From: Nocardioidaceae bacterium
Lineage (GTDB): Bacteria > Actinomycetota > Actinomycetes > Propionibacteriales > Nocardioidaceae
Assembly: GCA_017744365.1 (NCBI GenBank)
Contig: JAGIBL010000001.1
Span: forward strand, 865,416-929,415
Reading direction: 5' to 3'
Length of the DNA stretch: 64,000 bases
Shown: positions 9,505 through 30,394 of the stretch, one piece after another
Layout: the number at the start of each line of letters is the position of its first letter
Position numbering within the stretch: position 1 is the stretch's first letter
Translations under genes and position numbers: made by a program
Notes under the pieces: model-generated
Seen by the model: only the letters and a program-made list of their open reading frames with translations
Databases searched by the model: none
Told to the model about the DNA's origin: nothing

Positions 9505-9699
9505 TCAGTTGCGTGCGCAGCTGGAGCCGCCGGTCTTCGCCTGGAGCTGGTCGCAGGTGTTTCCGAACATGGCGACCACCTGGCCGCCCAGCAGGAACAC
9601 GACGAGCACGATCAGCGTGGCGATGCCCGCGATCAGCAGCCCGTACTCGACGGACGATGCTCCGTCCTCGGATCGTTCCTTCGAACGCATGATGTCCAT
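9505..9699 (-). CDS. flp: Flp-type IVb pilin (divergent copy)
   Basis: A 64-residue prepilin. The leader ends in EDG, cleavage is expected before ASSVEYG (Glu at +5, Tyr at +6 as in Flp pilins), and a single 22-residue hydrophobic helix follows. The tail carries two cysteines (NTCDQLQ and SSCARN) that could form a disulfide loop. It differs clearly from the two near-identical copies upstream, and lies downstream of a strong hairpin separating it from them. No copy of the pilus palindrome is seen in its 100-base upstream gap. Confidence 0.85.
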   Translation of the reverse strand: MDIMRSKERSEDGASSVEYGLLIAGIATLIVLVVFLLGGQVVAMFGNTCDQLQAKTGGSSCARN

Positions 9700-9799: not shown

Positions 9800-10000
9800 T
9801 TAGCAGCTCGCGGCCGCGCCGGAGCCGCCGCCCTTGATGTTCTTGCAGGTGTCGTCGAACGACTTCTTGATCACCCCGCCGAGGGCGAACACGATGATCA
9901 CGATCAGCGCAGCGATGCCAGCGACCAGCAGGCCGTACTCGACGGCAGAGGCACCGTCTTCGTCACGACGGTTGGTCAGGCGACGAAAAAACTCGAGCAT
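9800..10000 (-). CDS. flp: Flp-type IVb pilin (tandem copy A)
   Basis: A 66-residue pilin subunit of the Tad pilus. Basic cytoplasmic leader ending DEDG, predicted cleavage before ASAVEYGLL, hydrophobic helix, then SFDDTC...ASC tail with a Cys pair. It differs from the neighbouring copy B at only three positions (residues 3, 10 and 46), so the duplication is recent or under conversion. The 23-base leader before the ATG, including CCTTCCCCTAGGGAACTCG, is also shared with copy B. A palindromic site lies 107-124 bases upstream of the start. Confidence 0.9.
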   Translation of the reverse strand: MLEFFRRLTNRRDEDGASAVEYGLLVAGIAALIVIIVFALGGVIKKSFDDTCKNIKGGGSGAAASC

Positions 10001-10106
10001 GTGGGTTCCTTCCCCTAGGGAACTCGAATATCCAGGCCCTCTGCCCGGAGGTATAGAGTCTTCGCGAACGGGTCATCCCGGACTATCGGTGGAACAGGCT
10101 TACGTG

Positions 10107-10124
10107 ATAGTCCGATCGGACTAC
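10107..10124. promoter_or_regulatory. Palindromic operator upstream of flp copy A
   Basis: ATAGTCC-GATC-GGACTAC, one base short of a perfect ATAGTCC-N4-GGACTAT palindrome. A further right half-site GGACTAT is at 10080-10086. Same motif as upstream of flp copy B and of cpaB. Confidence 0.6.
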
Positions 10125-10154
10125 CCGATTCGTGCCGGTTCGGCAGGCGGACGA

Positions 10155-10355
10155 CTAGCAGCTCGCGGCCGCGCCGGAGCCGCCGCCCTTGATGTTCTTG
10201 CAGGTGTCGTCGAACGAGTTCTTGATGACGCCGCCGAGGGCGAACACGATGATCACGATCAGCGCAGCGATGCCAGCGACCAGCAGGCCGTACTCGACGG
10301 CTGATGCGCCGTCCTCGTCACGACGCTCGGTCAGACGACGGAAGAAGTCGAGCAT
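10155..10355 (-). CDS. flp: Flp-type IVb pilin (tandem copy B)
   Basis: A 66-residue pilin, nearly identical to the copy at 9800-10000. The offset between the two genes is 355 bases and covers the gene and about 25 bases of leader, beyond which the upstream sequences diverge apart from the palindrome. The prepilin motif (DEDG/ASAVEYGLL) and the C-terminal Cys pair are intact. The palindromic site lies 112-129 bases upstream, almost the same distance as for copy A, so the two are probably controlled together. Confidence 0.9.
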   Translation of the reverse strand: MLDFFRRLTERRDEDGASAVEYGLLVAGIAALIVIIVFALGGVIKNSFDDTCKNIKGGGSGAAASC

Positions 10356-10466
10356 GAGGGTTCCTTCCCCTAGGGAACTCGTACGACGGCCCCGATGGCC
10401 GCCTCACTGAGCAGAACGATGTCCTATTTGCACCTTTTCCCGCATCCTCCAGGCAGCCTGACCTGC

Positions 10467-10484
10467 ATGGTCCGAATGGACTAT
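10467..10484. promoter_or_regulatory. Palindromic operator upstream of flp copy B
   Basis: ATGGTCC-GAAT-GGACTAT, one mismatch from ATAGTCC-N4-GGACTAT. It lies just after the stop codon of the response-regulator gene, 112 bases from the flp start. Confidence 0.6.
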
Positions 10485-10495
10485 TTCCTGGCTGG

Positions 10496-11137
10496 TCAGC
10501 GGGGCGGGGAACCGGCGTCAATGAGGCCGGCCCGCATCGCCGCGACGAGGGCCTGGGCGCGGTTCGCGGCGCCGAGCTTCTCGTAGACCTTCGCGATGTG
10601 CGTTTTGGCGGTCGACTCGCTGATGTAGAGCTTGGCTGAGATCGCCGCGACGCCGAGACCGTCCGCGAGCAGGTCGAGCACCTGCCGCTCCCGGTCGGAG
10701 AGCCGCGGGGTCGTCGACGACATCCGGCGCATCATCGCCTCGGGCAGCCCGGCGCAGGTGAAGCTGAGCGGCGAGACCGCGGCGTGCCGTGCGGCGGCGA
10801 TCACCTCGGTGCTGGGGGCGTCCTTGCCGACGAAGGCAGACGCGCCGGCGTCCATGGCGGCGAAGATCTGCTCGTCGCCGGCGTACATCGTCAGCACGAC
10901 GAGGCCGACGTCCTTGCGGTCCTTGCGCAGCGCCCGGACGATGTCGAGTCCGGAGCCGTCCGGAAGCTGCAGGTCGACGACGACGACATCGGGAGCGAGC
11001 GAGGAGGCCATGGTGATCGCCTCGGCCACCGAGCCGGCCTGTCCGGCGACGTCGAATGCCTCGTCGCGCGAGAACGCGCCCGCGAGACCGTTCCTGATGA
11101 GCTCGTGATCGTCGACCAGCATCACCGACGTTGCCAT
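10496..11137 (-). CDS. LuxR/NarL-family response regulator of the pilus locus
   Basis: A 213-residue regulator. Residues 1-125 are a receiver domain (VMLVDDHELIRNGL, phospho-acceptor Asp in VVVDLQLPDG, Lys in VGKDAPS). The C-terminal LuxR-type helix-turn-helix is LSDRERQVLDLLADG ... ISESTAKTHIAKVYEKLG. It follows its histidine kinase and the tad genes on the same strand, which suggests it controls pilus expression. A NarL-type dimer would suit the palindromes near flp and cpaB, but that link is inferred. GGAGGAAG precedes the ATG. Confidence 0.88.
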   Translation of the reverse strand: MATSVMLVDDHELIRNGLAGAFSRDEAFDVAGQAGSVAEAITMASSLAPDVVVVDLQLPDGSGLDIVRALRKDRKDVGLVVLTMYAGDEQIFAAMDAGASAFVGKDAPSTEVIAAARHAAVSPLSFTCAGLPEAMMRRMSSTTPRLSDRERQVLDLLADGLGVAAISAKLYISESTAKTHIAKVYEKLGAANRAQALVAAMRAGLIDAGSPPR

Positions 11138-11195
11138 GGTCAGCTTCCTCCTTCAGCCTTCGTCAGCGTACCGACCGTGCCGGGTTCCCGTGGGC

Positions 11196-12698
11196 TTATC
11201 CCACCCGCACCACGATGCGCGTGCCGCGTCCGTCGATCGCGGGGGACTCGACGGAGACCTCCGCGTCGATCCGGTCCGCGCGCTCACGCATGATCCGCAG
11301 CCCGTGCGAGTCCTGCCGGGGCGTCCCGAGACCGACGCCGTCGTCGACCACCTCGATCACCGCGTGCGGCGGCTGCACCACGCACTCCACCCAGAGGTTC
11401 TCGCCCTCCGAGTGACGGCGTGCGTTGTTGATCGCTTCCTGGGCGATCCGGAGCAGCTCGGCCTCCACGCGCGGTCGCAGTCGTATCGTCGACTCGTCCA
11501 GGCTGACGTGCACCCGCAGCGGCGAGTGCGACCCGATGTGCCGGGCGAACGAGGCGATGCTCTGCCCGAGTCCCTGGGTCGTGTCGGTCTCGTTGCGCAG
11601 GTCGAAGACGGAGTTGCGCAGCTCGGCAACCACGCGGGTCACCTCTCGGCGCAGGCCGGCCACCGCGTCCTGCTGCACCGGGTCGGTCACGGTCGCCGAC
11701 AGGTTGTCGACGAGGTAGCCGAGCGAGGCGACGTCCTGCGCAACACCGTCGTGCACCTCCCGGGCCAGCCGGCGCCGCTCCTCGCTGGTCGCGGACTCGC
11801 GCACGCTGTTGAACAGCAGAGCGGCGTTCAGCCGCACCGTCGCGGGAGCAAGTCGCGCCATCGTCCGCGCCAGCGCCTTGCCGTCGGGCAAGGAGGCGCA
11901 GTCCGCCAGCACCACGGCGACCCGCTCGTTGTCGGTGGCCATCGGCAGTGCCACCCGGCTGCCACCGACGACCGGTTCGTTCCGCTGCCAGCAGCGGTGC
12001 AGCATCGAGTCCGCGTCGTGCACCGGGAAGTGCAGCGGTCCGTGCGAGTAGCGCAACGGGGTGAACTCGCCGTTCTGACGAAGCAGCACCGCGGACTGGC
12101 GAACCATGATCTCTTCGGCCACCTCGGTCAGCGCCTGGTCGGCGATGTCGACCGGGTCCAAGCCGGAGGTGAGCTTGCCGGAGAGGGCGTGCAGTTGCTT
12201 GATGAGGTCGAGAGCGCTGCGGTACGAGCCTTCCGACCCCGAGCGGAGCACGTTGTGCCTGCTCACCACGCCGATCAGCCCGAGGCCGAGGCCGGTGGTC
12301 AGCCAGGTGACCACGTCGCCGGCAAGGTCGCCGTCGTAGTGACTGACCAGCCACCACCAGCCCAGACCGAGAACCGCGCCCTCAGCCACCAGACCGGCGG
12401 CGACGGCGCGCAGGCCGCCGGCAATGCCCGCGATCAGGATCGGGGTGGCGAGGTAGGGAAAGGCTGCCTCGTGCGTGGGGAACGAGGTGATGGCGACGGC
12501 CGCCGTCCCACCGGCCTCGAGAGCAAGCACGAACTCGGGAGAAAGACGTCGGGTGAACGACGCCACCTGGGCCATCGCCGCGATTGCGGCAACGAACCCA
12601 ACCCCGGTCGTGTCGACGTCTCCGGCCAGGGCGGTCGACGTGATCGCCACTAGGGCGAAGACACGGGCCGCGACCCCGAACCGCAGCGCATCGTTCAT
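11196..12698 (-). CDS. Membrane sensor histidine kinase of the pilus locus (NarL-type partner)
   Basis: About 500 residues. Four or five hydrophobic segments occupy roughly residues 1-145, then a GAF-like sensing region at about 165-310. The dimerisation box RRLAREVHDGVAQDVASLG carries the phospho-His of HisKA_3 kinases. The ATPase domain has the N-box (EAINNARRHS) and DDGVGLGTP, ending in a G-box. The ATG shares one base with the tadC stop (TGATG), so it is translated with the pilus genes. The signal sensed is unknown. Confidence 0.85.
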   Translation of the reverse strand: MNDALRFGVAARVFALVAITSTALAGDVDTTGVGFVAAIAAMAQVASFTRRLSPEFVLALEAGGTAAVAITSFPTHEAAFPYLATPILIAGIAGGLRAVAAGLVAEGAVLGLGWWWLVSHYDGDLAGDVVTWLTTGLGLGLIGVVSRHNVLRSGSEGSYRSALDLIKQLHALSGKLTSGLDPVDIADQALTEVAEEIMVRQSAVLLRQNGEFTPLRYSHGPLHFPVHDADSMLHRCWQRNEPVVGGSRVALPMATDNERVAVVLADCASLPDGKALARTMARLAPATVRLNAALLFNSVRESATSEERRRLAREVHDGVAQDVASLGYLVDNLSATVTDPVQQDAVAGLRREVTRVVAELRNSVFDLRNETDTTQGLGQSIASFARHIGSHSPLRVHVSLDESTIRLRPRVEAELLRIAQEAINNARRHSEGENLWVECVVQPPHAVIEVVDDGVGLGTPRQDSHGLRIMRERADRIDAEVSVESPAIDGRGTRIVVRVG

Positions 12699-13636
12699 CA
12701 GAAGCGGCCCCGGAAGTTGTCGAAGATCGTGATGCCGGCCGGCCCCAGCACCGCGATGAACAGGCAGGGCAGGATGCAGAAGATCAGCGGTACCAGGATC
12801 TTTACCGGCACCTTCTGGGCCTGTTCCTCCGCCCACTGGCGGCGCTTCACACGAATCTCCGAGGACTGCACCCGCAGCACCTGGCCGACCGGGATGCCGA
12901 AGGCGTCAGCCTGTGCCATGGCGCTCACGAACGCCTTGAGATCAGGCAGGTTGGTCCGATCGGCCATCGAGCGGAGCGCGTCCGTGCGTCCCCGTCCGAT
13001 CTGCATCTCCTGCAGCATCCGGGCGAACTCGTCGGCAAGGGGACCATCTGTGTTGCGGGCCACCTGGGCCACAGCAGCGTCGAAGCCGAGGCCCGACTCG
13101 ACGGAGATGGTGAGCAGGTCGATCGCGTCGGGCAGCGCCCGTTGCATGGTGGCCGAGCGGTCGTAGGCCTTCTGGTACAGATACATGTTCGGGGCCATGT
13201 ACCCGGCGAGCGACGCGACCACCACGAAACCGAGGGTGGGTAGGAACGGCATCCCGAGTACGAGCGCGATCACCAACGAGACCATCAGGGCGGCGAAGAA
13301 GCAGACCACCTTGCCGGCGCTGACCCGGTCCGCAGTCCAGCCTCGTGGGTTGCCGGCGAGCTCGAGCTTCTCGTGGATGCGTTCGTTGGCGTCTGCGGGG
13401 GTGAGCTTGCGTCCGAGACCTTGGGCGCGTCCCAGCAAGGGCACCAGCACCCGGTCCCCGAAGGGAACATCCAGCTCGGTCTTGAGCTCCTTGGGAGCCG
13501 AGGTGAGCGCTTCCAGGACGGCGATCGAGCGATTCACACCCACTTCGCCCCGTGGCGACAGCGCCAGCGCCGCGATGACGATGAGCAGGGCAACGAAGAT
13601 CAAGCCGATTCCGGCGAGCATGATTCCGGTCGTCAT
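12698..13636 (-). CDS. tadC: TadC, inner-membrane platform protein of the Tad pilus
   Basis: A 312-residue type II secretion F-domain protein. One membrane span at the N-terminus, a pair of spans at about 115-155, the F-domain (ALPDAIDLLTISVESGLGFDAAV), and a C-terminal span with FCILPCLFIAVLGPAGI. With TadB it anchors the pilus motor in the membrane. ATG at 13636 is chosen over the upstream frame because GGAGGTG lies just before it and the tadB stop is one base away. Confidence 0.9.
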   Translation of the reverse strand: MTTGIMLAGIGLIFVALLIVIAALALSPRGEVGVNRSIAVLEALTSAPKELKTELDVPFGDRVLVPLLGRAQGLGRKLTPADANERIHEKLELAGNPRGWTADRVSAGKVVCFFAALMVSLVIALVLGMPFLPTLGFVVVASLAGYMAPNMYLYQKAYDRSATMQRALPDAIDLLTISVESGLGFDAAVAQVARNTDGPLADEFARMLQEMQIGRGRTDALRSMADRTNLPDLKAFVSAMAQADAFGIPVGQVLRVQSSEIRVKRRQWAEEQAQKVPVKILVPLIFCILPCLFIAVLGPAGITIFDNFRGRF

Positions 13637-13637
13637 G

Positions 13638-15593
13638 TCACACCTCCACCTTCGCAACCTTGCTCATCCAGAAGATCCCGACGGCGAGCAGGGCTGACAT
13701 CAGCCCGATCATGCCCCAGCCGAGGACCGTCGTGAACATCGGCTTCACGTACTCCGGACGGGAGACGGCAAGGTAGGCAAGGAAAGCGGGTGGCAGGCCA
13801 CCGAGGATCCAGCAGGAAAGCCGTCCTTCGGCAGAGAGAGCCCGTACGTGCCGGCGGATGTACTCGCGCTCGCGCAGCGTCGCGGCGACGGTGGTGAGCA
13901 GCTCGGCCAAGTTGCCGCCGACCTCGCGCTGGATCCGAATCGCCATGACGACCCACCGGAAGTCGACGCTCTGCATACGCTCGGCGACGCCGTCGAGGGC
14001 ATCCTCCAACGGAACGCCCAACCGACTCTCCACGATGACTCGCTTGAACTCGGAAGTGATCGGCTCGGTGCCCTCGCGCACGATGGTGTCCAGCGACTGC
14101 GCCAGGGAGAGCCCGGCCGACATGCTGCCCGACATCAGTTGAAGCGTGTCGGCGAGCCCTTCGGAGAATGCCTTCAGGCGGCGACTGCGCTTGAACGACA
14201 GATACACCCAGGGACCGATCGCGCCGAGGATCAGGAAGACCACCAGTCCGATCGGGTTACCTGCGGTGAGCAGCAGGCCGAGCAGTCCGGCCAGGAAGGC
14301 GATGCCGGCGTGCATCAGCAGCCATTCGGAAGCCTTGAGCGCCATGCCGGCACCCTCGAGCCGGTGCGCGATCTTGGCCTCGATGCTCGCGTTGCTGGCC
14401 AGCACGTTCTCGGCTGCTTGTTTGGCCTGGTCGGCGATCGACGGGCCGGCCGGCTTCACGGCGCCGCGTTTGCGCTGATGCGCCTCGGCCGTGTCCGCCG
14501 AGGCGCTGTAGACGGCCAGCTGGTCGCCCAGGCTGACCGGCTGTGCCTTGGCGGGGGTCAGCAGCACGCCCAGCAGCACGACGGCGCCCAGCCCGATCGC
14601 CGCGATCGCGCCGTACATGACGTTCGTCGGGACCTCGAACGGCGCCTTGCTCTCCGCTGCGATCGCCGGGCTGGTGTCCGGCGGCGGCGCCGCGGCGGCC
14701 TTCACGTTCACGAAAGCCGAGGCCGTGTGGGTCGACCCGCCTGCGTCCAGGCTCACCTGGACCGAGGCATCCGTCGCGGTCACCGACGCCGGCACGGTCG
14801 CGGTGACCAGGATCTGGCGGGCCAGCGCGTCGGCCTCGTTGGCGAAGGCGTCGCCGAGCGCCTCGGCGTCCGCGGAGATGACCTGGCCCTTGCTGGTGTC
14901 GGCCATCGACTTCAGCGCCGGCGGCGCCTGGGCGCCCTGCTCGAGCGCGACCGCGTCCACCTTCACGCCGGACTTGCGGATCGCGGAGAGCACCGGCGCG
15001 AGCGGCGCCTTGGTGTTGTCCTCGCCGTCGGAGAGCACCAGCACCTGGCGCTGGCCGGCGCCGGTCCCGGTGGCGGTGATCGCGGTCTGAACGCCGCGGT
15101 ACAGCGCGGTGTTCAGCTTGAGCGAGAGCGCCTCCACGATCGCCTTGGAGGCAGCCCGGTCCAGGCTCGGCTGCTGCCGGACGACCACGTCGTTGTCGAA
15201 GGTGACGATGCCGATGTAGACGTTGTCCGGGACGGTGTCCAGGTAGGTGAGCGCGGCCGCCTTGGCTGCCGCGATCCGGTCGCCCGCCATGCTGTTGCTG
15301 GTGTCGATCGCCAGCACCGTCGTACGGCGGATCGCGTCGGAGCTCTCCGCCACGGTCGCCTCGGCGTCCACGGTGCTGCCGTCCAGCGTGACCTTCACCG
15401 ACCCCAGGTCGACGTCGGCGTCACCGGGCACGCTGACCAGCAGCTTGAGCTGGCCGGCAGCGGTCTCGGAGTGGTCGATGGTGGCGTCGTCGGCCGCGTG
15501 CGCCCCGGCGAGGAACCCGCCGCTGAGCGCCAGCAGGCACGCCGCCGCCGCGCCCGCGCCGAGCGAGCGCCACCGCCGTACGACGGTGCTCAC
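13638..15593 (-). CDS. tadB: TadB with an N-terminal secreted von Willebrand A domain
   Basis: A 651-residue fusion. Residues about 1-33 look like a signal peptide (LALSGGFLAGAHA). A VWA domain follows at about 90-270, with an intact metal-site motif DTSNS at 97-101 and VLSDGEDN. A membrane span at about 325-345 leads to a cytoplasmic linker, and the C-terminal half is the TadB F-domain (LADTLQLMSGSMSAGLSLAQ) between membrane spans, ending MSKVAKVEV. Topology therefore puts the VWA domain outside the cell, joined to the pilus platform inside. Start is GTG, overlapping the tadA stop (GTGA). Confidence 0.88.
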   Translation of the reverse strand: MSTVVRRWRSLGAGAAAACLLALSGGFLAGAHAADDATIDHSETAAGQLKLLVSVPGDADVDLGSVKVTLDGSTVDAEATVAESSDAIRRTTVLAIDTSNSMAGDRIAAAKAAALTYLDTVPDNVYIGIVTFDNDVVVRQQPSLDRAASKAIVEALSLKLNTALYRGVQTAITATGTGAGQRQVLVLSDGEDNTKAPLAPVLSAIRKSGVKVDAVALEQGAQAPPALKSMADTSKGQVISADAEALGDAFANEADALARQILVTATVPASVTATDASVQVSLDAGGSTHTASAFVNVKAAAAPPPDTSPAIAAESKAPFEVPTNVMYGAIAAIGLGAVVLLGVLLTPAKAQPVSLGDQLAVYSASADTAEAHQRKRGAVKPAGPSIADQAKQAAENVLASNASIEAKIAHRLEGAGMALKASEWLLMHAGIAFLAGLLGLLLTAGNPIGLVVFLILGAIGPWVYLSFKRSRRLKAFSEGLADTLQLMSGSMSAGLSLAQSLDTIVREGTEPITSEFKRVIVESRLGVPLEDALDGVAERMQSVDFRWVVMAIRIQREVGGNLAELLTTVAATLREREYIRRHVRALSAEGRLSCWILGGLPPAFLAYLAVSRPEYVKPMFTTVLGWGMIGLMSALLAVGIFWMSKVAKVEV

Positions 15594-17194
15594 ATCCCCT
15601 CCGGGACGAAGACCCGTGGGTCCACGGTCACGTTCGCGAACGCCATCTTCTCCAGGAACTTCGGGCGCAGGCCGGTGGACTTCAGCGTGCCCAGGCTGCG
15701 GCCGTCGGCGTCGAAGCCCGCGTTGTGGTCGAACAGGAAGATGTCCTGGAGGGTGATGACGTCGCCCTCCATCCGCTCGACCTCGGTGACGTGGGTGATC
15801 CGGCGGGTGCCGTCCTTGAGACGGGCCTGGTGCACGATCAGGTCCACCGCGGAGGCGACCTGCTCGCGGATCGCCTTCATCGGCAGCTCCATGCCGGCCA
15901 TCATCACCATGGTCTCGATGCGCGAGAGGGTGTCGCGCGGGCCGTTGGAGTGCACCGTGGTGATCGAGCCGTCGTGACCGGTGTTCATCGCCTGCAGCAT
16001 GTCCAGTGCCGAGGCGTCTCGAACCTCACCGACGACGATGCGGTCGGGGCGCATACGCAGCGAGTTCTTGACCAGGTCGCGGATGGTGACCTCGCCCTTG
16101 CCCTCGATGTTGGACGGGCGCGACTCCAGCCGGACCACGTGGTCCTGCTTGAGCTGGAGCTCGGCGGCGTCCTCGATGGTGACGATGCGCTCGTCGCCGG
16201 GGATGAACGAGGACAGCACGTTCAGCGTGGTGGTCTTGCCGGCACCGGTACCGCCGGAGACGATCACGTTGAGCCGGCCGCGCACGCAGGCGTCCAGGAA
16301 GTCGGCGGTCTTGCGCGAGATGGTGCCGAAGTCGATGAGGTTCTCCGCCGTCAGCGGGTCCCGGGAGAACTTGCGGATGGTCAGCGAGCTGCCGTCGATC
16401 GCCAGCGGCGGCACCACCGCGTTGACACGGCTGCCGTCGGGCAGACGGGCATCCACCATGGGGGAGGCCTCGTCGATGCGGCGGCCGATCCGGGAGACGA
16501 TCTTGTCGATGGTGCGGCGCAGGTGCGCCTCGTCGTTGAACCGGCCGTCCACCCGCTCGAGGCGGCCCTTGCGCTCCAGCCAGATGTCGAACGGCCCGTT
16601 GACCATGACCTCGGCGACGCTGTCGTCGCGCAGGTAGGGCTCCAGGGGTCCGTAGCCGAGGATGTCGTCGGCGATCTCCTGGGTGATCCGCTGCCGATCG
16701 GTGCTGGTCAGCGGCCGGTCACTGGCGGCCATCACGTCGCCGAGCGCCTGCCGGACCATCGCCTCGAGCTCGGACGGGCTCAGGTTGGCGTCGTACAGCT
16801 TCGGGCCCAGCTGGACCAGGAGCTCCTCGTGGACGCTCTCCTTGAGGTCGTCGAAGCGGCCCTTGACCGGTCGGGTCCGGACCGCCTGCTGCGGCGGCGT
16901 CGAGACCGGGCGCTGCGGCGGCGCGGCCGACGCGACCGGGACGGCGGACGCGGGCTCGGCGTGCGCCCCCTGCGGGCCGCCCGTGGAAGGGGCCGGAGAC
17001 GAGGCTTGCGGAGCGGCCTGAGGAGCGGCTTGCGGAGCACTCTGCGGAACAGCCGGGGGAGCAGCGGCGGCCGGCGGCGTCGCCGGTCGAGCCGGTGTCG
17101 GCCCCGCGGCCTCGGCCTGCTCGGAACCCCCCGGCTCCTGCTGGCCCTTGCCGCCCCGCATCAGCTCGGCGAGCCGATCGGAGAAGTCACTCAT
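15590..17194 (-). CDS. tadA: TadA/CpaF, pilus assembly secretion ATPase
   Basis: A 534-residue AAA+ motor that powers Flp pilus assembly at the membrane. The first ~110 residues are low-complexity Ala/Pro. The conserved domain starts at VKGRFDDLKESVHEELL. Near residue 310 is Walker A (SGGTGAGKTTTLNVL), followed by the Asp box (TIEDAAELQL), Walker B (RIVVGEVRD) and the His box (TGHDGSITTVHSN). The gene follows cpaE by 20 bases and overlaps tadB. Confidence 0.95.
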   Translation of the reverse strand: MSDFSDRLAELMRGGKGQQEPGGSEQAEAAGPTPARPATPPAAAAPPAVPQSAPQAAPQAAPQASSPAPSTGGPQGAHAEPASAVPVASAAPPQRPVSTPPQQAVRTRPVKGRFDDLKESVHEELLVQLGPKLYDANLSPSELEAMVRQALGDVMAASDRPLTSTDRQRITQEIADDILGYGPLEPYLRDDSVAEVMVNGPFDIWLERKGRLERVDGRFNDEAHLRRTIDKIVSRIGRRIDEASPMVDARLPDGSRVNAVVPPLAIDGSSLTIRKFSRDPLTAENLIDFGTISRKTADFLDACVRGRLNVIVSGGTGAGKTTTLNVLSSFIPGDERIVTIEDAAELQLKQDHVVRLESRPSNIEGKGEVTIRDLVKNSLRMRPDRIVVGEVRDASALDMLQAMNTGHDGSITTVHSNGPRDTLSRIETMVMMAGMELPMKAIREQVASAVDLIVHQARLKDGTRRITHVTEVERMEGDVITLQDIFLFDHNAGFDADGRSLGTLKSTGLRPKFLEKMAFANVTVDPRVFVPEGM

Positions 17195-17214
17195 GTCCCC
17201 ACCCCCGGTTGTCT

Positions 17215-18411
17215 CTACTTCCGCCGGCGTCCGAAGACGCGGCGCTTCGGCTCCGCAGCCTCGATCGGCTGCCTCTCAGCGTTGTTGACCGCTTTCTCGG
17301 CCCCGGCTCCCGCGCCGAGCTTCTGCGCGAGCCGGACCAGCGCCTTGCTGACGGCGTGGTCCGGGCGGCTGAGCACGATCGGACGTCCGTGGTTGGTCGC
17401 GTTCGCCACGGCCAGGGCCGAGGGCAGCGCGGTGGCCACGGGCATCTTGAGCAGGCTCTCCACGTTGGCGGGCGAGAGCCCGACCTCGTCGTCGGCCCGG
17501 TTGAGCAGCAGGTGCCGGTGGCCCTCGACCAGGTTGAGGGCGTCCAGCGTCTCCAGTGCGACCTTCATGTTCTTGACCGTGGGCACGTCCAGGGTGGCGA
17601 CCAGGATGCACTCGTCGGTCTCGTCGAAGGCGTGCAGCACCTGGTCGTCGAACGACGGCGAGGTGTCCACCACGATGTAGTCGAAGTGCTGGCGCAGGAT
17701 CCGCAGCACCCGGCGGATCAGCGCCGGCGAGATCCGGTCCTTGCCCTCCGGGTGGGTGGGCGCGGCCAGGATCGAGCAGTTCTCGTGCCGGGTCAGCAGC
17801 GTCTCGAGCAGGCTGAAGTCCAGGTGCTCCTCGGCCTCGACCGCCTCGGCGATGGTGTGCTCGGGGATCAGCTGCAGGGTGATCGCCACGTCGCCGAAGG
17901 CCAGGTCGAGGTCGACCACGCAGACCCGGGCGGCACCGCTGCCGCCCAGCGCCACGCCGATGTTCACCGCGACCGTGGTCTTGCCGACCCCGCCCTTGGG
18001 GGAGAAGACGGTGATGACCTTGCCGTGCCGGTCCTCGCCCTCGAAGGCCGGCCCGCGGATGGCCTCCCAGGTCTGCCGGCTGCGCTCGACCGCCGCGGCC
18101 ATGCCCTCCAGGTCGGCGGCGGCCACCACGGCGGGGATGCCGGCCCGCATCGCCTGCTGGAAGACCTCCGAGCTCAGCTCGTGGCGCAGCAGGACCAGTC
18201 CCGTCGTCGGGTGCGAGTAGCGCAGCCGCTCGGCCAGCGCGACGGTGTCGGCGAGCGCGATGTTCGGCCCCAGCACGACGGCGTACTCGTCGCTCTGGTT
18301 CGCCAGCCAGTTGCCGAGCTCGGCCACGCCGGGTACCACCTGGGTGCCGGAGGGCAGGCCGGCAGCGAGGGCGTTCGCCCAGGCGGCGTCGTGCTCGACG
18401 AGGACTGGCAT
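17215..18411 (-). CDS. cpaE: CpaE/TadZ-like localisation ATPase
   Basis: A 398-residue protein. The N-terminal ~125 residues resemble a degenerate receiver-type domain. A MinD/ParA ATPase follows with deviant Walker A FSPKGGVGKTTVAVN near residue 135, DLDLAFGDVA, and DYIVVDTSPSF. CpaE/TadZ proteins position the pilus machine in the cell. Between cpaB (26 bases) and tadA (20 bases), same strand. Confidence 0.9.
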   Translation of the reverse strand: MPVLVEHDAAWANALAAGLPSGTQVVPGVAELGNWLANQSDEYAVVLGPNIALADTVALAERLRYSHPTTGLVLLRHELSSEVFQQAMRAGIPAVVAAADLEGMAAAVERSRQTWEAIRGPAFEGEDRHGKVITVFSPKGGVGKTTVAVNIGVALGGSGAARVCVVDLDLAFGDVAITLQLIPEHTIAEAVEAEEHLDFSLLETLLTRHENCSILAAPTHPEGKDRISPALIRRVLRILRQHFDYIVVDTSPSFDDQVLHAFDETDECILVATLDVPTVKNMKVALETLDALNLVEGHRHLLLNRADDEVGLSPANVESLLKMPVATALPSALAVANATNHGRPIVLSRPDHAVSKALVRLAQKLGAGAGAEKAVNNAERQPIEAAEPKRRVFGRRRK

Positions 18412-18436
18412 CGGGTGACCTTTCGGGAGGGGACGC

Positions 18437-19165
18437 TTACTTGAACAGGCTGTCCGCGGAGGTGCCCGGTCCGGGCCGCACCTCGGAGTCCTTGTTCAGC
18501 AGGCCGAACGCGACCTGGCCGCCCCCTGAGCCACCGTTGGTCGCGTAGAGGATCTTCTCGGCCTGGGCCTGCGTCACGCCCACGGTGAAGAGCGTACGCG
18601 GCAGCTGCTCGGTCGTCTGGTTGCCACTGGCGTCGGTCGTCGTGGTCGGGACCACGGCGGTCGCGCCGACGGCGATCACCTCGACGTCGTTGAGCAGCAG
18701 CCGGGTGAAGGCCGGTGTGGTCAGGAAGATCGCGACCTTGTCGCCCGGGTTCACGAAGCCCGCGACCCGGCCGGTGTCGGTCAGGTTGAGCGAGATCGCG
18801 ATCGAGCCCTTCGGGATGGTCAGGTTGTTCCCGGTGGCCACGGTGGTGGCGAACTTCGCCGCGATGACCTGCTCGCCCGGGTAGAGCGTGGTCTGCGCGA
18901 TCTGCCCCTCGATCGGCGAGAGCGAGTCGAGCGAGCCCGGCAGCCGCTGCCCCTCGGCGACCGAGCCGAGCTCGATCTTGCCGGCGGCCTGCGCGGCGGC
19001 GACGGTCTCGCCCGGGTTGATCTGCTTGGTCACCGTCAGCACCTTGACGGCGTTGAACTTCTCGTTCGCCCGGTCGTCCGCGCCGCGGACGTAGAGCACC
19101 ACGAGCAGGGTGCCCAGGGCGGCGATGATGGCGGCGACGACGAGCAGAACTCTCCTGCGGTCCAT
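18437..19165 (-). CDS. cpaB: CpaB/RcpC pilus assembly protein
   Basis: A 242-residue single-span protein. MDRRRVLLVVAAIIAALGTLLVVLY is the membrane anchor. The SAF domain follows (VTKQINPGETV, TTLYPGEQVIAAKFA) and then the RcpC-type beta domain (GSIAISLNLTDTGRVAGFVNPGDKVAIFL). It is the first gene of the tad operon. ATG at 19165 is chosen because GGAAAGG lies upstream and it places the anchor at the N-terminus. Confidence 0.9.
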   Translation of the reverse strand: MDRRRVLLVVAAIIAALGTLLVVLYVRGADDRANEKFNAVKVLTVTKQINPGETVAAAQAAGKIELGSVAEGQRLPGSLDSLSPIEGQIAQTTLYPGEQVIAAKFATTVATGNNLTIPKGSIAISLNLTDTGRVAGFVNPGDKVAIFLTTPAFTRLLLNDVEVIAVGATAVVPTTTTDASGNQTTEQLPRTLFTVGVTQAQAEKILYATNGGSGGGQVAFGLLNKDSEVRPGPGTSADSLFK

Positions 19166-19518
19166 GTGCAGGGCCTTTCCTTCAGTGGCGCCCCCCTGAG
19201 CCGCCTCCTCCAGCCCCCGGGTGCTGCCGGGAGGAGGTCGCTCGCGCGAGCACCGAAGTGTCGACCGGCATCCCCTCCGGTGCCGGTGAGTAGGAACTCT
19301 GCCCGATAGTCCTCTCGGTTGCACCGAAGTCCGGCAGACATGACCCGCATGGAAGTGGGGCCATAGTCACATCGGACTATTTAGCATGATTAGTCCGGTT
19401 TATCCACAGTTCCGATACGCCTTGTGCGCCCGGTTTGGGGACTTAGGTCATGACCCAGCAGGACCACGCGGGCTCCGCTGGACCAGACCACGGCGTGTCG
19501 CCGCCGGACGACCTCCGG
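19166..19518. other. 353-base non-coding region upstream of the tad operon
   Basis: Lies between cpaB and the convergent-side end of the acyl-CoA synthetase gene. It holds the pilus palindrome cluster in 19306-19396 and a comparatively AT-rich patch around 19375-19420 (GGACTATTTAGCATG, CCGGTTTATCCACAG). I see no convincing gene in it and no clear -10/-35 pair. Confidence 0.6.
19306..19396. promoter_or_regulatory. Cluster of pilus-operator sites upstream of cpaB
   Basis: A full site ATAGTCA-CATC-GGACTAT is at 19363-19380. A left half-site ATAGTCC is at 19306-19312, and TTAGTCC is at 19390-19396. The full site differs from ATAGTCC-N4-GGACTAT at one base. This is the only other place I found the motif besides the flp upstream regions. 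Confidence 0.6.
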
Positions 19519-29340: not shown

Positions 29341-30015
29341 GTGAACCAGGCAGCGGACCGCACCGGCATCCGGGTGATGGTGGTCGACGACCACCCGATG
29401 TGGCGCGACGGCGTCGCCCGTGACCTGACCGAGGCCGGGTTCAGCATCGTTGCCACCGCGGGCACCGGGACCGAGGCGCTGACCCGGTTCCCGGCCACCC
29501 AGCCCGACGTCGTCGTGCTCGACCTGCAGATCCCGGAGCCCAACGGCGTCGAGGTCACCGCCGAGCTGATCCGGCAGAACGCCGCGGTCAAGGTGCTGGT
29601 GCTCTCCGCCAGCGGCGAGCAGAACGACGTGCTCGAGGCGGTCAAGGCCGGCGCGATCGGCTACCTGGTCAAGTCCGCGTCGCGGCCCGAGCTGATCGCC
29701 GCGGTGGACCGGGTCGCGGCGGGGGAGACCGTGTTCACCCCGGGCCTGGCCGGGCTGGTGCTCGGCGAGTACCGCCGCCTGGTGGACGCGCCCGCCGAGG
29801 ACAGCACCGCGCCGCGGCTGACCGAGCGCGAGACCGAGGTCCTGCGGCTGGTGGCCAAGGGACTGTCGTACAAGGACGTGGCCGACCGGCTGGTGATCTC
29901 GCACCGGACCGTGCAGAACCACGTGCAGAACACGCTGCGCAAGCTGCAGCTGCACAACCGGGTGCAGCTGGTCCGGTACGCGATCGAGCAGGGTCTCGAC
30001 GAGACGGAAGAGTGA
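29341..30015 (+). CDS. MacR-like LuxR/NarL-family response regulator
   Basis: A 224-residue regulator with a receiver domain ([14 protein letters not shown], phospho-Asp in [11 protein letters not shown], Lys in [10 protein letters not shown]) and a LuxR helix-turn-helix ([25 protein letters not shown] ... [17 protein letters not shown]). It pairs with the MacS-like kinase encoded upstream. Probably leaderless from the TAGGGT at 29328, besides being reached by read-through from plsC. Confidence 0.88.
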
Positions 30016-30082
30016 GTCGAGCGGCGGGAAGAACCACGCTCCGGGTAGCGTTGGGCCCAGGTGCAGGAGAGAGGGGTTCGCG

Positions 30083-30394
30083 ATGGTGCTGTTCCGACGG
30101 CAGCTCGGTGACGTGCTTCGCAACGAGCGGATGCGTCAGGGGATGACGCTGCGCGAGCTCTCCTCCGAGGCCCGGATCTCTCTCGGCTACATCTCCGAGA
30201 TCGAGCGCGGCCAGAAGGAAGCCTCCTCCGAGCTGCTCTCCTCGCTGTGCGAGGCCCTCGACGTGCCGCTGTCCGCGGTGCTCCGCGAGGTCAGCGACAC
30301 CGTGGCCGTCGAGGAGCAGCGCCTCGTCGCCGAGGCCATCGTCGAGCGCGTGGGCCAGGCCCGCGAGGGCGACGTGGTCGCCTCCGCCGCCTGA
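30083..30394 (+). CDS. ClgR-like XRE-family regulator
   Basis: A 103-residue regulator with one Cro/C1-type helix-turn-helix (LREVs-like [24 protein letters not shown]). The sequence [11 protein letters not shown] followed by [16 protein letters not shown] is diagnostic of the actinobacterial ClgR group, which controls clp protease and stress genes. Preceded by a TAGCGT box at 30046-30051 and an AGGAGAGAGG site. No clp gene is in the window. Confidence 0.83.

Follow-up and report, generated by a model that had tools for sequence, protein, structure and literature searches.

The 64,000-nucleotide stretch of DNA from a Nocardioidaceae bacterium analysed here, which we call the window (assembly GCA_017744365.1, contig JAGIBL010000001.1, positions 865,416 to 929,415), carries a Tad/Flp pilus locus in which CpaB, TadZ, TadA, TadB, TadC and Flp are encoded in a single gene run. 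As an earlier sequence-only reading had described, the tad gene run ends with a histidine kinase (HK; HisKA_3 and HATPase_c) and a response regulator (RR; Response_reg and GerE). A palindrome, ATAGTCC-N4-GGACTAT (18 bp), recurs upstream of two of the pilin genes and of cpaB. We refer to this palindrome as the box. Its core is TAGTCC-N4-GGACTA, box scores count the 12 core bases, and the reversed pattern was the control throughout. The features of the locus, in window coordinates, are:

9505-9699, minus strand: third Flp-type pilin open reading frame (PF04964, just above the cut-off)
9800-10000, minus strand: flp pilin gene (PF04964)
10050-10055, minus strand: putative -10 element TATACC of flp 9800-10000, picked by eye, with the box centre 60 bp upstream of it
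10080-10086: half-site GGACTAT, between box 1 and flp, belonging to a degenerate second palindrome, TAGTCCGGGATGACCC (minus-strand reading, 9/12)
10107-10124: box 1, ATAGTCCGATCGGACTAC, one mismatch; core 10108-10123, TAGTCCGATCGGACTA, 12/12; 106 bp before flp 9800-10000
10155-10355, minus strand: flp pilin gene, almost identical to flp 9800-10000
10467-10484: box 2, ATGGTCCGAATGGACTAT, one mismatch; core 10468-10483, 11/12; between the RR stop codon and flp 10155-10355, 111 bp before the flp start
10496-11137, minus strand: NarL/LuxR-type RR, the proposed binder (PF00072 and PF00196)
11196-12698, minus strand: HK (HisKA_3, HATPase_c)
12698-13636, minus strand: TadC-type T2SSF protein
13638-15593, minus strand: vWA domain fused to a TadB-type T2SSF domain
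15590-17194, minus strand: TadA/CpaF ATPase (PF00437)
17215-18411, minus strand: CpaE/TadZ-type ParA-like ATPase
18437-19165, minus strand: CpaB/RcpC (TIGR03177, above the cut-off)
19306-19312: half-site ATAGTCC, between box 3 and cpaB
19363-19380: box 3, ATAGTCACATCGGACTAT, one mismatch; core 19364-19379, 11/12; 197 bp before cpaB (start at about 19165)
19390-19396: half-site TTAGTCC, one base off, beyond box 3

Read directly from the sequence, the three palindromes lie where the earlier reading had put them, each one mismatch from ATAGTCC-N4-GGACTAT. That reading had given distances of 107 and 112 bases to two nearly identical flp genes and of about 200 bases to cpaB; the two genes are indeed nearly identical, and we measured 106 and 111 bases between box and start codon for flp and 197 for cpaB. 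Among the half-sites it listed, those at 10080 and 19306 are exact, and the one at 19390 (TTAGTCC) departs from the half-site by one base. No box of at least 10/12 was found upstream of the third pilin reading frame (9505-9699). The product of 13638-15593 has its N-terminal vWA domain, with a DTSNS metal-site motif, behind an apparent signal peptide and ahead of the TadB-type T2SSF domain.

The strong matches are unlikely to have arisen by chance in the window, which holds three at up to 3 mismatches where 0.47 would be expected; none of 100 shuffles gave three. Across the whole genome (15 contigs, 4.76 Mb), five sites have at most 1 mismatch compared to none for the reversed pattern, and six compared to two have at most 2. 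Genome-wide enrichment disappears once up to 3 mismatches are allowed (25 sites, 30 reversed), and because pattern and control are about equal at this level we treat loose matches as noise. Three of the five strong sites fall in the window, where 0.027 would be expected from the density outside, a comparison that is partly circular in that the motif was defined from these three. Strong sites are not equally frequent at random places in the genome. The other two played no part in the definition of the motif: a perfect site at C1:73325 (locus L001) lies between a peroxiredoxin gene and tRNA-Val, and a strong site at C3:18847 (L002) precedes a class I fumarase gene by about 40 bp. The peroxiredoxin/tRNA-Val position is boxed in two genomes (L001:1501-1518, and L025:1501-1518 in genome G015). 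Furthermore, a site with 2 mismatches stands between a whiB-like gene and a gene for a penicillin-binding protein (PBP) in the same genome as the window (L006). This genome also has a second tad-type locus (L237, G000:C9:244000-262000), 42% identical and about 36 kb from the whiB4/ponA2 region; it has no site of at least 10/12 and was rejected as a box target.

We followed the box into related genomes, where gene calls came from a crude script based on GC3 and names that lack Pfam or NCBIfam support were assigned by eye. Orthologs of the RR (at least 60% identity) were found in 24 of 58 genomes. The flp comparison covered 22 loci with an RR ortholog and flp just downstream, the window's own included and two others excluded (L135, which has no flp, and L142, where the contig ends after the RR). 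The best core upstream of flp scored 12/12 in ten of these loci, 11 in seven, 10 in one, 9 in three and 8 in one, that is, at least 10/12 in 18 of 22 and at least 9/12 in 21 of 22. In the same 22 stretches the reversed pattern never reached 10; its maximum was 9 (in 8/22). The distances found from box to start codon were 107-162 bp. Named relatives with a flp box are Nocardioides pocheonensis, N. marmoriginsengisoli, N. marmorisolisilvae and a Marmoricola sp., and at L065 three flp copies are each boxed, at 105-110 bp (9, 10 and 11 of 12). Upstream of cpaB, a box of 10-11 of 12 lies 195-199 bp away at L040, L041, L042 and L065, close to the 197 bp of the window; these loci belong to the same genomes as G016, G007, G015 and G018, so that they cannot be counted independently of the 22 flp loci. 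The proposal of one palindrome shared by pilin and tad promoters therefore stands for the pilin promoters (18/22, compared to 0/22 for the reversed pattern) and applies less widely to cpaB, where at least 10/12 is reached in 5 of the 14 named loci that have a cpaB match.

Several boxed loci in relatives turned out to be intergenic, with a WhiB-family gene on one side and a gene for a bifunctional PBP on the other. We take these genes to be whiB4 (wblA-type) and ponA2, names that presume synteny with Mycobacterium and Streptomyces; the WhiB-family gene, most consistently the one downstream of the box, stands beside those for an ArsA-type ATPase and the bifunctional PBP, and in two boxed loci Pfam (PF02467) backs the WhiB identity. 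We surveyed the 300 bp upstream of the bifunctional PBP in 127 genomes, made up of 113 of the 149 family genomes and 14 of 21 from the order-level outgroup. Outside the 113 are G001 (no close match), G074, G077 and G110 (no match) and 32 others, and for G085 one of two PBP copies was taken. A core of at least 10/12 is present in 87 of the 113 family genomes and in none of the 14 outgroups, and the reversed control reaches this score in 1 of 127, a family genome (1 of 113). Divided by RR status, the box is found in 44 of 51 family genomes with an RR ortholog and 43 of 62 without, and within genus g6 in 24 of 26 members with the RR and in all three without it. The start of whiB4, located by a W-N-E-x-W pattern, could be placed in 55 of the 87 boxed promoters, and in 53 of these the box lies 98-130 bp upstream (median 113). 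Its distance to the start of the PBP protein match, which is not the start codon, ranges from 42 to 228 bp. Because the distance to whiB4 is tight and that to the PBP variable, whiB4 is the likelier target of the two. Exact cores occur at 93 places in the 149 family genomes, compared to 18 for the control.

From these comparisons, the box is a real, evolutionarily maintained regulatory sequence and not chance, with whiB4 its most conserved predicted target and Flp pilin the second. We rejected the idea that it is a private pilus element, since the whiB4/ponA2 intergenic region conserves it just as well, and the "pilus regulon" of the sequence-only reading was drawn too narrowly: in this family the whiB4 promoter has this box as one of its elements, at a similar distance (87/113).

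The whiB4 promoters show a regular anatomy. In 73 dereplicated promoters, TAnnnT follows the box at 45 bp in 17 cases, at 46 bp in 29 and at 47 bp in 12, and is found in no more than two at any other offset between 25 and 79. A third half-site (T.G.CC, 5 or 6 of 6) follows at 7 bp in 16 of the 73 and at 8 bp in 20, where about 2 would be expected per offset (2.8%), with minor peaks of up to 9 of 73 near offsets 16-17 and 22-23. Counted from the start of the box, the box-aligned profile of these promoters shows CTG at +37 and CTTAa.TT at +60. An inverted repeat at a fixed distance upstream of -35 and -10 is the arrangement of a class I activator site, and because the spacing is fixed we read the geometry as activator-type. 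If transcription is assumed to start about 6-7 bp after the -10, the box would be centred near -65, with the third half-site near -46. The spacing argues strongly for class I geometry at whiB4 and weakly at flp. Four flp promoters of genus g26 (L256, L257, L296 and L298) have TTAACT or TTAGGT at 45-46 bp, three of them being copies of one locus type, and several RR-linked flp promoters have extra half-sites between box and promoter.

We consider it probable that the palindrome is the operator of a homodimeric activator, present throughout the Nocardioidaceae, that would bind near -65 and switch on whiB4 and the Flp pilin genes. The operator half-site would be roughly TRGYCM, and the homodimer would occupy the core TAGTCC-N4-GGACTA. 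From near -65 it would contact RNA polymerase at the whiB4 promoter, with the -35 and -10 following at a fixed distance and a third half-site often present near -46. The same box would drive flp with less fixed spacing and, in some lineages, cpaB and scattered surface or envelope genes. We infer all four elements of this proposal: protein binding, activation rather than repression, one protein for all sites, and the co-regulation of pili and WhiB4.

A number of observations weigh against such an activator. That one binder serves all sites is an assumption. At least 10/12 is not reached at whiB4 in 26 of the 113 family genomes. The cpaB box holds in only 5 of 14 named loci, and at the fifth of these, L050 (186 bp), the reversed control also reaches 10. 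Fumarase was rejected as a conserved target, as just one of 27 fum upstream regions, that of the window's own genome, reaches 10/12. Fixed -10 spacing is seen in just 4 of 29 flp promoters, all from g26, and the other 25 have no TTAnnT at that position; those without fixed spacing include L297 and L301 of g26, L281 and the RR-linked flp promoters, where -10 elements picked by hand lie 53-60 bp from the box centre in one subgroup and 80-83 bp from it in another. The whiB4 box is also slightly commoner in genomes with the RR (44/51 compared to 43/62; Fisher p = 0.04, phylogeny ignored). Exact cores number 63 compared to 8 for the control in 77 genomes with the RR, and 30 compared to 10 in 72 without it. 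Finally, L234, a tad locus of genome G027 that has no RR, has no box.

The last two points also speak for the explanation given by the sequence-only reading, in which the NarL-type RR of the tad locus binds the box. Here the RR would be autoregulated through the cpaB box and drive pilin, and elsewhere a regulator of like specificity would hold the sites. A boxed flp does follow the RR gene immediately within the gene run, and half-sites paired across a short spacer are a good match for NarL-type dimers. Among the first 58 genomes, 17 of 24 with an RR ortholog had a site of no more than 1 mismatch, as did 3 of 34 without. Genome G013 (L235, C1:98000-112000) has kept HK and RR together with a 12/12 whiB4 box, with no close TadA left in the genome, which fits either view. 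As a general binder, however, the RR is unsupported. The box is not found solely where the RR is present: it is kept at whiB4 in 43 of 62 genomes without the RR, including 3 of 3 in g6, and an exact box precedes flp by about 100-150 bp in three g26 tad loci (L296, L297 and L298) whose 19-kb stretches encode neither RR nor HK. A hidden ortholog in box-bearing genomes was rejected, as matches in the nine RR-less genomes searched were at most 41% identical. We therefore regard the RR as an unlikely general binder and a family-wide regulator as the likelier one; the RR may be an additional binder of the same boxes where it is present.

Other loci show how the RR, tad genes and box combine. A fourth g26 tad locus (L301) has an exact box before flp and a 33% identical RR with an HK about 4.5 kb away, and L238, a tad locus that lacks the RR, has one 10/12 site. 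At L048, L054 and L063, tad genes accompany an RR of 60-68% identity, with no flp match and no box beside the RR. In the order-level family f3, tad locus L236 has a 47% identical RR and no box, which counts weakly against the RR as binder as its specificity may differ there. The Jiangellaceae loci L051, L053, L055-L062 and L064 (L058 being a metagenome-assembled genome) have an RR of 62-65% identity with no box near it and no tad or flp gene in the stretch, so that they have no bearing on whether RR and box go together in tad loci; the RR may have a role apart from tad there. A conserved stretch, CGATGTCC..TCTGTCC, lies between box and -10 in RR-linked flp promoters (L121-L123, L129-L134 and L137) and is a possible candidate site for the tad RR itself.

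We also considered that the palindrome might work as RNA, in a hairpin, attenuator or processing site, given that the arms are perfect, the loop is 4 nt long and GAAA loops occur in several copies. We think this very improbable. The whiB4 box sits upstream of a -10-like element at a fixed distance, between the divergent whiB4 and ponA2, changes in the arms are often uncompensated (TGGCCC...GGACTA), and the loops vary, with both GAAA and TTTC found. Chance, or the shared descent of a non-functional stretch, could be argued from the small number of strong sites (about 1-5 per genome) and from loose matches that equal the control, but it is contradicted by the controls (reversed pattern 1/127 and 0/22) and by the conservation of the box, similarly spaced, in two unrelated promoters across several genera, and hardly merits belief.

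Returning to the family-wide activator, it is an evenly balanced proposition that a module composed of TAGTCC-N4-GGACTA, about 45-47 bp and TAnnnT, rigid at whiB4 and less strict at flp, ties the expression of Flp pili to the WhiB4 redox regulator. Tad loci would then have been plugged into an older circuit, and the HK-RR pair of some tad loci would be a later or parallel layer. Further exact boxes, each position being seen in one to five genomes, suggest targets with a surface or envelope flavour. They lie between dnaB and a MATE-transporter gene in five g6 genomes (L280, by Pfam; L283, L284, L290 and L292, by eye), before flgB (L288:2009) and next to fliM (L289:2069; fliM match below the cut-off) in two g6 genomes, near an AsnC-type domain gene and a glycosyltransferase/secreted-protein gene downstream of tad (L029, L285, L294 and L295), and before secreted-protein genes (L249, L252 and L255). 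Palindromes resembling TTAGTCCACGTGGACTAA lie beside genes judged by eye to be PadR-like in genomes G057 and G045 (L021:1501-1518 and L039:1501-1518), and these are probably a different operator. The box offers a defined cis-element for two little-understood actinobacterial systems, the switching on of whiB4 (wblA-type) genes and of Flp pili. The adjoining two-component system is not needed for its retention, and the box itself can serve as bait sequence for finding the true regulator.

The motif was not found in a search of an open-access literature library, which, given that scope, is weak evidence. The same library yielded nothing on the LiaR 7-4-7 box, which we set aside as a lead and did not count as evidence. 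Short palindromic operators upstream of -35, often in tandem, are typical of ComA, LiaR, DosR and NarL, and we know of no NarL/LuxR-type operator with the present sequence. The tad RR is of the same type as these regulators, but many box-bearing genomes lack it. Its best NCBIfam match is the MadR family (NF047785), which we rejected because the score of 152 bits (E 1e-44) falls far short of the curated threshold, 300. A further NarL-type RR, followed by an XRE-type regulator, is encoded at 29341-30394 of the window, judging by eye from its translation. Crp, whose operator is TGTGA-N6-TCACA, was rejected, the half-site here being TAGTC; the one Crp-like protein that we read (in G036) has a standard-looking SRETVNK helix. 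TcrA of the actinobacterium Actinoplanes missouriensis, an orphan response regulator, controls flagella and pili. It is a global activator whose 21-bp repeat box lies ahead of the transcription starts (PMC12691653). The box given there is a direct repeat, GCA(A/C)CCG-n4-GCA(A/C)CCG (PMC12691653), compared to the inverted repeat TAGTCC-N4-GGACTA here, and we rejected it as the same element. Set beside these systems, the palindrome adds a new regulatory box to a known kind, and the observation is stronger than was earlier claimed.

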